A stretch of DNA of 64,000 nucleotides from the NCBI RefSeq assembly GCF_028331445.1, contig NZ_JAQMHX010000001.1, positions 868,001-932,000 on the forward strand, written 5' to 3'. The stretch comes from Candidatus Phyllobacterium onerii. GTDB lineage: Bacteria > Pseudomonadota > Alphaproteobacteria > Rhizobiales > Rhizobiaceae. Shown here in pieces: positions 31,045 to 34,490 of this stretch; positions within the stretch are counted from its first letter, which is position 1, and each line of letters begins with the position of its first letter. The translations under genes and the position numbers were made by a program. Under the pieces are notes generated by a model. The model saw only the letters and a list, made by a program, of their open reading frames with translations, searched no databases and was not told the origin of the DNA.

Positions 31045-31121
31045 GGTCCCGTAGCTCAGCTGGATAGAGCACCGGCCTTCTAAGCCGACGGTCACTGGTT
31101 CGAATCCAGTCGGGATCGCCA
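31045..31121 (+). tRNA. tRNA-Arg(TCT)
   Basis: 77 bases with encoded CCA. Acceptor stem GGTCCCG with CGGGATC (one G-T pair), D arm GCTCAGCTGGATAGAGC, anticodon stem-loop CGGCCTTCTAAGCCG with anticodon TCT, and T arm CTGGTTCGAATCCAG. It directly borders the accessory locus with the deaminase gene. Confidence 0.97.
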
Positions 31122-31204
31122 TCTTTTCAATAAGTTAGCTGATAGCGCCACCGGAGTGCTCGAGTCCAGGGCTCTTTTATTGTTCACCGAATGATTCTTC
31201 AGGA

Positions 31205-31230
31205 CAATAAAAACCCCGCCGGAGCGGGGC
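31205..31230 (-). terminator. Rho-independent terminator of the 58-residue gene
   Basis: On the minus strand CCCCGC, loop TCCG and GCGGGG form a 6-bp GC stem followed by TTTTTATT. It sits 24 bases after the stop of the small leftward gene, which supports that gene being a real transcription unit. Confidence 0.85.
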
Positions 31231-31253
31231 TGTACACTTTCGAAGGTAGAATA

Positions 31254-31430
31254 TTATTCTTTACCCATAAAATACATACTCGAGTTCATGTTCTGCGAAT
31301 CGCGAAAATCCTGCAACGCCTCTTCATACACGGACTTAGTTTTTACGGATAATGAACTAAGTTGTTCTAGAGTCATATTCCGATCTTGATCGGACTGGGG
31401 TGCTTTTTTCGCATGAGTCTGGTTCATCAT
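31254..31430 (-). CDS. Small protein (58 residues) divergent from the dCTP deaminase; function unknown
   Basis: A short frame with an AAGGGAAA ribosome site just before two successive ATGs, and its own terminator 24 bases after the stop. The product begins MMNQTHAKKAPQSDQD and ends SMYFMGKE; it is hydrophilic, with no cysteine and no membrane segment. The start lies 53 bases from that of the divergent deaminase gene, and the gap holds the near-palindrome TCTCTCCGAGAGA. It might be an inhibitor or partner of the deaminase, or the transcript itself may be the active inhibitor, as the AvcI RNA is for AvcD in Vibrio. Both are inference. Confidence 0.7.
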   Translation of the reverse strand: MMNQTHAKKAPQSDQDRNMTLEQLSSLSVKTKSVYEEALQDFRDSQNMNSSMYFMGKE

Positions 31431-31483
31431 TTTCCCTTTGTAGCTCTCTCCGAGAGACTCAGTGAGTTGGATGTCATTAACAA

Positions 31484-33061
31484 ATGCAGCATGATAAGGC
31501 CATTAAAAGCACTACACGTCCAGAGTTAAATTATCCTGAAATTGTCTTAGGAATTGTATCTCCCATTGGCACTGATCTCTTGCCTGCCGTGAGTTCCATC
31601 ACATCTCAATTCGAAGCTTTAGGATATGACGTCTACCATATTAAACTGTCAGCACTTTTTAATGTTATCGCCGATCTCATAGGATACAAGAAACTCCTAT
31701 CTACCTCCAGATACGAGAAGGTGAACACCTATATCGACTTCGGTAACTTTTTGAGAGAGACCTACGGAAAAGGGATCCTTGGTTCCTTTTCAGTGATGAA
31801 AATTGCGGAAAAGAGAATCGAAAAGAGCGAGCAAACACCTCAGCGACGCAAGACAGACATCCGAGGCACACTTTACATCATTGATCAGCTGAAGACGGAG
31901 GCGGAACTCGATCTATTACGCGAAGTGTACGGTCCCCTATTCTTCCAGATTTCTGTTTATTCCGCGCGCGACATACGTGTCGACAACCTCTCCAAAATTA
32001 TGGCTCATGACGATAAGAAGGCCGATCGAAACGCTTATCGTGAAAAAGCTGAGCAATTGGTTATGAGGGATGAGGATGAGCAGGACAAACCATTTGGTCA
32101 AAAAGTCGGCAAAATCTTCCAATCCGCGGATGTTGTGTTGAATGCGGGTAAGAATGACGCAACGGCAAACATCGACAGGCAGATAGATCGGTTCGTGCAG
32201 CTTCTATTCGGATACAATGGATATTCACCCACGCGTATGGAATATGGAATGTTTGTAGCCTATTCCGCAGCGCTTCGAAGTCTTGATTTGTCTCGGCAAG
32301 TGGGAGCAGCAATTTTTCGTGAGAGTGGAGAGATCGCGACTCTCGGGGCCAATGAGGTACCAAAGGCCCTGGGCGGAACATATTGGTGTAATGAGGTCTA
32401 TGACGACAGAGAATACGTGCGCGGAAGCGACAGCAACGATAAACGTAAAGACGAGCTTCTCCACGAAGTTCTCGAAATTGCCTTAGGAAAGAATTTTAAA
32501 CTTATACCTGAGATGCAAAAGTCACTCGATAACTCCCAATTTATGGACGCTCTTGAGTATGGGCGAATAGTTCATGCTGAAATGTGCGCTGTTACTGACG
32601 CTGCTCGCCTCGGCATAGGAATAGCTGGCGGAACAATATATTGCACGACATTTCCCTGCCATATGTGTTCCAAGCATATCGTCGCGAGCGGCTTGGCCCA
32701 CGTCGTATTTCTCGAGCCGTATCCCAAAAGTCTTACTGCAGATATGCATTCAGATTCCGTCAAAATCGAAGGAACTACGCGAGGAATATATGAATCTTTT
32801 CCCTCTGTTAACTTTGCTCCGTTTTTCGGCATAACACCGCGACGTTACAGGGAACTATTCTCTAGAAAGAAGCGGAAGGATCGAGGCGATTTCGACCGAT
32901 ATAGAGACGGGTATCCCCGCCCTATCGTTTCATTTATGGCTCCTTGGTACATGCCACGCGAAATCGAAATAATTGACAGGACTGTAACCTTGTTAAGAGA
33001 AGCCGCCGAGTTGGACACTCCAAAGCCTGTCGTACCAGCTGCTGAGATTGTCAAACAGTAG
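31484..33061 (+). CDS. Anti-phage dCTP/dCMP deaminase, AvcD/DCD-like
   Basis: 525 residues in two domains. The N-terminal third is a P-loop kinase-like domain with a modified loop, GIVSPIGTDL, typical of this family. The C-terminal part is a zinc deaminase: H364-A-E366 (VHAEMCAVTDAARLG) and C392/C395 (PCHMC). This layout is that of AvcD and other defensive dCTP deaminases, which empty the dCTP pool during phage infection. The gene is visibly more AT-rich than its neighbours and uses TTA, AGA and ATA codons often, signs of transfer. It lies between a tRNA-Arg and an unrelated reductase gene. No Shine-Dalgarno precedes the ATG. Confidence 0.88.
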   Translation: MQHDKAIKSTTRPELNYPEIVLGIVSPIGTDLLPAVSSITSQFEALGYDVYHIKLSALFNVIADLIGYKKLLSTSRYEKVNTYIDFGNFLRETYGKGILGSFSVMKIAEKRIEKSEQTPQRRKTDIRGTLYIIDQLKTEAELDLLREVYGPLFFQISVYSARDIRVDNLSKIMAHDDKKADRNAYREKAEQLVMRDEDEQDKPFGQKVGKIFQSADVVLNAGKNDATANIDRQIDRFVQLLFGYNGYSPTRMEYGMFVAYSAALRSLDLSRQVGAAIFRESGEIATLGANEVPKALGGTYWCNEVYDDREYVRGSDSNDKRKDELLHEVLEIALGKNFKLIPEMQKSLDNSQFMDALEYGRIVHAEMCAVTDAARLGIGIAGGTIYCTTFPCHMCSKHIVASGLAHVVFLEPYPKSLTADMHSDSVKIEGTTRGIYESFPSVNFAPFFGITPRRYRELFSRKKRKDRGDFDRYRDGYPRPIVSFMAPWYMPREIEIIDRTVTLLREAAELDTPKPVVPAAEIVKQ

Positions 33062-33089
33062 TCTCTAGGCCGCTCGGCCTCATGATCTA

Positions 33090-34490
33090 TTATCCCCCAG
33101 CGCGTGAAGAGATGCCGCCGAGGAGCGGTCCCAGTCCTTCGGCTATTGTCAGATGGGTAATGACCGCATCGCGCATCCGCATATATGGAAGTTCCGCCAA
33201 CATCGCCATTTGAACCGCAGCCATTACCTCGCCCGCCTCGGAGCCGATCATGGTGAAGCCCAATATCCGGTCGTCCGCCGCACCGACCAGCACTTTCATG
33301 TAGCCCTCGGTTTCGTCCGTCGCTTCCGTCCGCAACACATTGCCCATCGGCATTTGAGCGACGCGGACCGGGATGTTTTTCCGCTCCGCTTCGCCTTCGC
33401 TTAAACCCACGCGGGCGAGGGGAGGGTCAGTGAACATGACGTAGGGCACCAGTCGTTCATCCGTTCTGCGGTTGCCGCCAGCCAAATTGTCCCTGACTAT
33501 CCGGAAATCATCGACGGAAACGTGCGTGAATTGCGGGCTGCCGGCGCATTCGCCGATTGCCCAGACACCGGATGCTGTGGTCTCCAATCGCTCGTTGACG
33601 CGGATAAAGCCACGGGCATCGAGCTCGACGCCCGTCCGTTCAAGCCCGATATCGGCGGTATTCGGTATGCGCCCGGTAGCTACGAGCAGATCGCTGCCTG
33701 TGATCGTCCGCTCTCCGGAAGCCGTGCGAATGGTAACGCCGACTTCATCTCCTGAAAGGCCATGAACATTGACGGGTCGGGCGTCCAGCAGAATTTCAAT
33801 TTCTTCCCCGGTCAGGATGCGCTGCATCTCGGTCGCAACGTCTGCGTCTTCCCGGCTCATAAGCTGTTTGCCCGGTTCGATGATGGTGACGCGGCTGCCG
33901 AAACGGCGATAGGCCTGCGCCATTTCGATACCGATATAACCGCCGCCCAGCACGATAAGATGGGCCGGCACGTAGTCGAGTTCCAGCGCTTCGATATGCG
34001 TAAGCGCGCGGGCTGTCTCAAGTCCGGGAATGTTCGGGATCGCTGCATGCGATCCGACATTGATAACGACCTCCCTGCCGGTCAGCAGCCGCGTTCCGCC
34101 ATCGTTCAGTGTCACCTCGATCGTCTTGGACTCAACGAAACGCCCGCTGCCCATGATCAGCTCCGCACCGCTTTCCTTGTACGCCTTCAGGTGAAAGGCG
34201 ATCTCCCGGTCGACCATGTCCTGCTTGCGGCCTCGCACCTTGGCCATGTCGATCTTGACGGGCCCCGTCTGCGTACCGAACCTGGCGGCGTTGCGGGCGA
34301 GGTGCGCAACCCTCGCGCTCCAGATCTCGTTCTTGCTGGGCAGACATGCGACTGCAGGGCATGAACCACCAACCCAACGGCGTTCCACGACGGCAATTTT
34401 TTGACCCGAGCGGGCGAGATGCCAGGCAAGCTGTTTTCCGCCCTGGCCGCTGCCTAGGATCACGGTGTCGAAATGTTCGGATTGGGACAT
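33090..34490 (-). CDS. FAD-dependent pyridine nucleotide-disulfide oxidoreductase (mercuric-reductase-like)
   Basis: 466 residues. FAD-binding GSGQGG at 13-18, the redox-active pair C44/C49 in GGSCPAVACLPSK, an NAD(P)H-binding VLGGGYIGIEMA near 180, the second FAD contact ATGRIPNTADIG, and a C-terminal dimerisation domain. The CPAVAC spacing fits the MerA/lipoamide dehydrogenase family, but the N-terminal heavy-metal domain and C-terminal vicinal cysteines of MerA are missing, so mercury reduction is doubtful. It is divergent from a LysR gene, which probably regulates it. Confidence 0.88.
   Translation of the reverse strand: MSQSEHFDTVILGSGQGGKQLAWHLARSGQKIAVVERRWVGGSCPAVACLPSKNEIWSARVAHLARNAARFGTQTGPVKIDMAKVRGRKQDMVDREIAFHLKAYKESGAELIMGSGRFVESKTIEVTLNDGGTRLLTGREVVINVGSHAAIPNIPGLETARALTHIEALELDYVPAHLIVLGGGYIGIEMAQAYRRFGSRVTIIEPGKQLMSREDADVATEMQRILTGEEIEILLDARPVNVHGLSGDEVGVTIRTASGERTITGSDLLVATGRIPNTADIGLERTGVELDARGFIRVNERLETTASGVWAIGECAGSPQFTHVSVDDFRIVRDNLAGGNRRTDERLVPYVMFTDPPLARVGLSEGEAERKNIPVRVAQMPMGNVLRTEATDETEGYMKVLVGAADDRILGFTMIGSEAGEVMAAVQMAMLAELPYMRMRDAVITHLTIAEGLGPLLGGISSRAGG

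Follow-up and report, generated by a model that had tools for sequence, protein, structure and literature searches.

Defence by anti-phage dCTP deaminases is usually listed as a single-gene system. In Vibrio, according to the available portions of two reports, the enzyme AvcD is kept off by a labile RNA, AvcI, and is freed when phage infection shuts off transcription (PMC10511110, PMC12409362), and the pair is described as an RNA-controlled toxin-antitoxin system (PMC10511110). For promoters controlled by GANTC methylation, the available text of another study gives YGAKTCK as the GcrA-associated form of the site, an extended form that was unseen in Brevundimonas (PMC7987155).

Here we analysed a 64,000-nucleotide stretch of the genome of Candidatus Phyllobacterium onerii (the window; contig NZ_JAQMHX010000001.1, positions 868,001 to 932,000), in which an avcD-like gene lies back to back with a small gene. 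The features discussed below, in window positions, are as follows.

31045-31121, plus strand: tRNA-Arg (TCT) gene, which borders the insertion site (ARAGORN, Rfam)
31139-33097: acquired block of 1,959 bp, 46.0% GC, with only the two genes inside (congener comparison)
31212-31231, minus strand: intrinsic-terminator-like hairpin after the small gene (pattern scan)
31254-31430, minus strand: small protein gene, 58 aa (the start may be the second Met), type A partner of AvcD (leave-out HMM, Shine-Dalgarno (SD) sequence)
31455-31461, minus strand: TGAGTCT, a CcrM site (GANTC) of the YGAKTCK type; about 25 nt separate its end from the small-gene start downstream
31484-33061, plus strand: avcD-like anti-phage dCTP deaminase gene, 525 aa (family HMMs, alignment, structure model)
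31541-32209, plus strand: adenylate-kinase-like domain, residues 20-242, with a degenerate P-loop at residues 23-32
32225-32851, plus strand: dCMP-deaminase-like domain, residues 248-456, with HAE codons at 32573-32581 and PCHMC codons at 32654-32668

The enzyme belongs to a known family; what is new is its protein partner and the promoter signature. Like other AvcD proteins (NF041025; PADLOC dCTPase), it scores above the HMM cutoff, combines kinase-like and deaminase domains with HAE and PCxxC motifs, and is encoded in a patchily distributed, acquired locus, but it continues for about 60 aa beyond where the HMM match stops, and its locus adds a divergent protein-coding neighbour and a GANTC promoter site. 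The Vibrio AvcID type III toxin-antitoxin system shares the enzyme family and has, as here, a small locus beside avcD that plausibly controls AvcD; AvcI, however, is noncoding, an RNA whose locus adjoins avcD on the upstream side, whereas the neighbour in the window is translated, divergent and under protein-level selection. As in type II toxin-antitoxin systems, a small protein gene adjoins a potentially harmful enzyme, but the two genes are divergent and form no operon, and the small protein, a putative inhibitor, is modelled as a single helix with no recognisable DNA-binding domain. Caulobacter GcrA/CcrM promoters likewise have GANTC as YGAKTCK near the promoter, and the window's genome encodes both GcrA and a RAMA-domain protein, whereas for the window's promoter it is the motif that suggests dependence on methylation. 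The literature searched contained no link between the GcrA/CcrM regulon and a dCTP-deaminase defence locus and, in the portions available, no description of a protein partner of AvcD, although the founding papers (10.1038/s41564-022-01162-4, 10.1038/s41564-022-01158-0) may hold one.

The two genes form a horizontally acquired block, as its patchy presence, an empty site in a congener and its odd composition establish. The original prediction, made from the letters and open reading frames of the window, had taken an AT-rich locus directly after a tRNA gene as the mark of an acquired defence module, and comparison with relatives bears this out. The GC content of 31139-33097 is 46.0% against 55.7% for the window, and the block begins 17 nt after the end of tRNA-Arg(TCT) at 31121. 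In congener G309, whose flanks are 94-96% identical, 69 bp replace the whole block. Although the tRNA-Arg flank was matched in 20 of 20 genomes of the genus, full-length avcD was present in one, the window's own, and a long avcD match was found in 17 of 297 family genomes, again counting the window's own. AvcD also matches 62 plasmid records, 49 of them across at least 80% of the protein, and 200 phage records, two of them over 80% of the protein; the annotated phage proteins among the matches listed are dCMP deaminases.

The sequence that follows tRNA-Arg varies between congeners (L080, L082 and other loci of the genus), with an ORF of the phage integrase family in one genome (G298) and an IS4/5-type transposase ORF in another congener; the site is probably an insertion hotspot.

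The 525-aa protein is, by its sequence, an AvcD-type enzyme and a predicted dCTP deaminase. It scores 415.2 bits against the NCBIfam model for anti-phage dCTP deaminases (NF041025, cutoff 400), matches the PADLOC dCTPase model at E 1.2e-154 and is modelled by structure prediction as an adenylate-kinase-like domain followed by a dCMP-deaminase-like domain. This agrees with the fusion of a kinase-like N-terminal domain to a zinc deaminase that had been proposed, including the positions of HAE (residues 364-366) and PCHMC (residues 391-395). In an alignment of 15 sequences every residue of the two motifs was invariant except the M of PCHMC. The proposed modified P-loop, GIVSPIGTDL, is indeed found at residues 23-32 within the kinase-like domain, but it has no Walker GK(S/T), and this protein thus lacks an intact P-loop; GK(S/T) was seen at that position in none of the other 14 rows either, and an intact Walker A P-loop is not required for membership of the family. 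With the family cutoff passed and the kinase-like domain in place, and given the patchy locus, the empty congener site and the odd composition, neither of the two outcomes named at the outset as speaking against an acquired AvcD module occurred: the protein is not a housekeeping dCMP deaminase without a kinase domain, nor is the locus fixed in all relatives with normal composition.

The same genome carries a second AvcD-like ORF of about 321 aa (G000:C5:54446-55300; L002, L049, L189), which matches the 437-position HMM only up to position 272 and stops short of the zinc motifs. Judged visually it is similar to the G127/G071 group, which is not part of the clade described below, and no partner gene was recognised in the list of ORFs around it.

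The small gene runs divergently from avcD, with 53 nt between the two start codons and an SD sequence ahead of its ORF. Searched with a type A HMM derived from four genomes other than the window's own, the 1,737 six-frame pieces of the window yield this ORF at E 8.2e-10 and no further hit under E 0.4, which confirms the divergent 58-codon gene that had been called from the letters. The terminator assigned to it is present as a pattern, an 8-pair stem with a T run from 31231 down to 31212, and is the best of four such sites, the expectation for 2 kb being 2.1 (sd 1.6). A sigma70 consensus scan between the two start codons gave no promoter.

Relatives of the small gene surfaced only through the neighbourhood of avcD. 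On its own, the 58-aa protein found by tblastn no relative in viral contigs or plasmids, and only itself among 297 family genomes. Matches of the small proteins tried in Pfam, PHROGs, NCBIfam and PADLOC were weak or below cutoff and were taken as chance, among them one to a Tle1-like C-terminal domain (E 7e-4, below cutoff); PDB searches with small-protein profiles gave nothing under E 0.08. The Rfam scan of the locus returned a single sub-threshold match, to an RsmY-like RNA at 31210-31323, which at 19 bits against a gathering score of 57 was likewise rejected as chance.

Comparison across relatives shows that one clade of AvcD has the small gene as a conserved, protein-coding partner. We used an avcD alignment to scan contigs in which each species is represented by a single genome; of the 136 loci obtained we retained the 80 best and applied to them a fixed rule (a divergent ORF of 40-90 aa, starting 5-230 nt upstream, with an SD-plus-start score of at least 5). 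On that base such an ORF was found in 56 of 78 loci, including the window, against a mean of 6.5 (sd 2.2, max 13) for dinucleotide shuffles and 22 of 317 for other ORFs of the same loci. In a tree of 93 AvcD proteins the partner belongs to a single clade of 69 rows (SH-aLRT 100), mostly alphaproteobacterial enzymes, where the fixed rule finds it in 55 of 61 loci as against 1 of 24 outside (1/17 and 0/7). With hand curation, 63 of 66 scorable clade members have the gene, which is about 60 codons long and divergent; three truncated rows (L145, L163, L164) were left unscored. Hand-curated small ORFs were also used for the coding and motif counts. Of the 77 contig loci in which the start of avcD was usable, 20 were initially set aside, of which L169 was later restored from upstream DNA (it is still counted without the gene on the AvcD tree, where the AvcD of L108 ends after 137 aa, 26% of columns); also among the 20 was L138, which the SD rule accepts although it falls outside the clade and its sequence does not resemble the rest, and the starts of L093 and L094 were placed by hand. 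Terminator-like hairpins follow the small gene in 13 of 58 loci, compared with 3 of 58 in the control, and in one plasmid record the partner is annotated merely as a hypothetical protein.

The partner was not found in three clade members, L106, L118 and Zymomonas, whose AvcD motifs are kept, so it is not always needed; the position of Zymomonas on the tree is unsure because of its long branch. L106 and L118 are closely similar loci from metagenome-assembled genomes (MAGs), in which avcD begins at the end of the upstream gene.

On balance we favour, by a modest degree of belief, a two-gene AvcD defence module with a helical protein inhibitor and a promoter linked to GANTC, CcrM and GcrA. AvcD would deplete dCTP and dCMP during phage infection, and the product of the divergent gene, a helical and presumably labile protein of some 60 aa, would most likely keep it inactive in healthy cells, filling in this clade the role that AvcI RNA has in Vibrio. 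Transcription of the small gene would probably start at a promoter carrying a GANTC site that CcrM methylates and GcrA reads, thereby tying the supply of the partner to the state of the host chromosome; a phage that halted host transcription or disturbed that state would let the partner decay and free AvcD. Inhibition, lability, methylation dependence and trigger are what we infer for a locus whose AvcD membership and acquisition, coding and conserved partner, pairing and GANTC/YGAKTCK conservation are computed. The suggestion that the neighbour might be a new type of control is strengthened by the finding of a conserved coding partner, with the control of AvcD itself still conjectural. The divergent order, an unusual layout for an antitoxin, speaks against an inhibitor. 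The stronger statement, that a whole AvcD clade has a protein inhibitor where Vibrio has an RNA and makes it from a CcrM-methylated, GcrA-read promoter, is one we put forward only tentatively, as a possibility that we would not ourselves expect to hold.

The main rival is that the small protein acts positively, as a sensor, a trigger or an activating subunit that AvcD needs. Pairing and co-divergence would suit any partner, and the clade members that have AvcD without the small gene are easier to understand if the gene is not needed for keeping AvcD off. Yet the regulation known in this enzyme family is inhibitory, as far as the available text of PMC10511110 goes, and in one case, a congener in which avcD lies elsewhere than at the tRNA-Arg site (L190, G311:C5:783000-792000), avcD is broken, with two frames and one stop, beside an intact small gene of the RRGP type, the order of decay expected if the enzyme is the harmful part. 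We consider a positive partner unlikely.

The GANTC site ahead of the small gene is conserved. Of 63 loci, 55 have a GANTC in the 60 nt before the start of that gene and 8 do not; the figure for shuffles is 16.6 (sd 3.2, max 26), for other ORFs 26 of 223, for divergent starts elsewhere in the fetched loci 14 of 134, and for the next pentamer of GANTC symmetry 25 of 63. In 30 of these loci, the window among them, the small-gene strand carries the extended form YGAKTCK, against 2.4 (max 7) in shuffles and 1 of 134 controls; since related loci share ancestry, neither these nor the GANTC counts are independent events. YGAKTCK is on the avcD strand in 15 loci, and the site may therefore serve avcD. 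The genome encodes GcrA (PF07750, 209 bits) and, in a 438-aa frame, a RAMA domain (PF18755, 62 bits) whose protein is, from its sequence, probably CcrM. The enrichment could instead be an ordinary alphaproteobacterial excess with no role at avcD: GANTC is at least 1.5-fold over-represented in intergenic regions of this class (Gonzalez 2014, cited in the available text of PMC7987155), and outside the clade it lies within 100 nt of avcD in 5 of 17 loci too. Against the counts at the other divergent starts, however, for GANTC and still more for YGAKTCK, we regard this as quite improbable.

Two further patterns occur in the upstream region. The word GTTAA/TTAAC, perhaps the site of another regulator, is present in 26 of 63 loci in the 80 nt that precede the small gene, whereas simple shuffling of the letters gives 10.2 and at most 17; the corresponding stretch in the window is 31431-31510. 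In 25 of 51 loci a TAnnnT hexamer ends 0-3 nt before GANTC, the rate at other positions being 9.4%, a count biased because the best-fitting site was picked where a locus had several.

Divergent layouts are common for pairs of a regulator and its target, and with roughly 18-128 nt between the starts the small protein might be a transcription regulator of the divergent promoter pair, AvcD activity being controlled otherwise. The window protein, however, is modelled as a single helix (residues 13-55, mean pLDDT 77.6) in which no HTH is seen, and among the proteins tried no regulator family passed the cutoff in Pfam, NCBIfam or PHROGs, so that we hold this reading to be very unlikely.

The small gene encodes a protein, and the window copy is a member of the group. 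Small proteins were assigned by sequence to types A, B, C and D, D being a catch-all that makes up 16 of the 63 partners and draws its support mainly from position and SD. The types follow the AvcD subclades: with six labels the AvcD tree needs 10 changes in all (A 1, B 2, C 2, D 7), whereas shuffling gives 54 on average. Between types A, B and C, hhalign gave unconvincing probabilities under 2%, and both the combined A and B profile (E 2.8) and the type C profile miss the window ORF; with profiles and hhalign failing to join the types, it is position that suggests their common ancestry. All 15 pairs at 50% or more protein identity have pS (0.56-0.89) above pN (0.09-0.39), an outcome that choosing pairs by protein identity favours. 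Within type A, pS exceeds pN in 10 of 10 pairs, with synonymous sites near saturation; these pairs were not picked by pairwise identity, but the type itself was picked by resemblance. Leave-one-out protein HMMs recover 19 of 19 type C members, which share the motif RP..RRGP(F/Y)VI.D.DL (for example L134:2706-2882); for those tried, neither Pfam nor PHROGs nor the PDB sequences gave a significant match. Across 297 family genomes, with at most 21 candidates scored per genome, the type C profile gave five matches under E 1e-4, all beside that genome's avcD, and five weaker ones elsewhere, in a search that is partly circular, as G202, G070 and G136 are also in the profile (as L134, L120 and L121) while G155 and G160 are not.

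One type A pair (L092) comes from a MAG labelled Arenimonas and groups with rhizobial loci on the AvcD tree, which may reflect transfer or misbinning.

That the transcript regulates rather than the peptide, as an AvcI-like RNA that happens to hold an ORF, is suggested by AvcI being an RNA and by the short minus-strand transcript of the window with its own terminator, but it is highly improbable given pS above pN in the compared pairs, the SD before the ORF, the complete leave-one-out recovery by protein HMM and a window transcript whose degree of structure is unremarkable (z -1.26); an RNA running antisense to this gene might conceivably act as the regulator.

Returning to the inhibitor that we favour, a protein partner conserved in a large clade is a candidate for what keeps AvcD off, or switches it on, in rhizobia and their kin, and the shared methylation site may connect the epigenetic control of the cell cycle with defence against phages. 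If the inhibitor is indeed made from a CcrM-methylated, GcrA-read promoter, an epigenetic mark of the cell cycle would license its production and couple a dCTP-depleting defence to the replication state of the host, and phages with a CcrM or GcrA of their own could possibly tip the switch.
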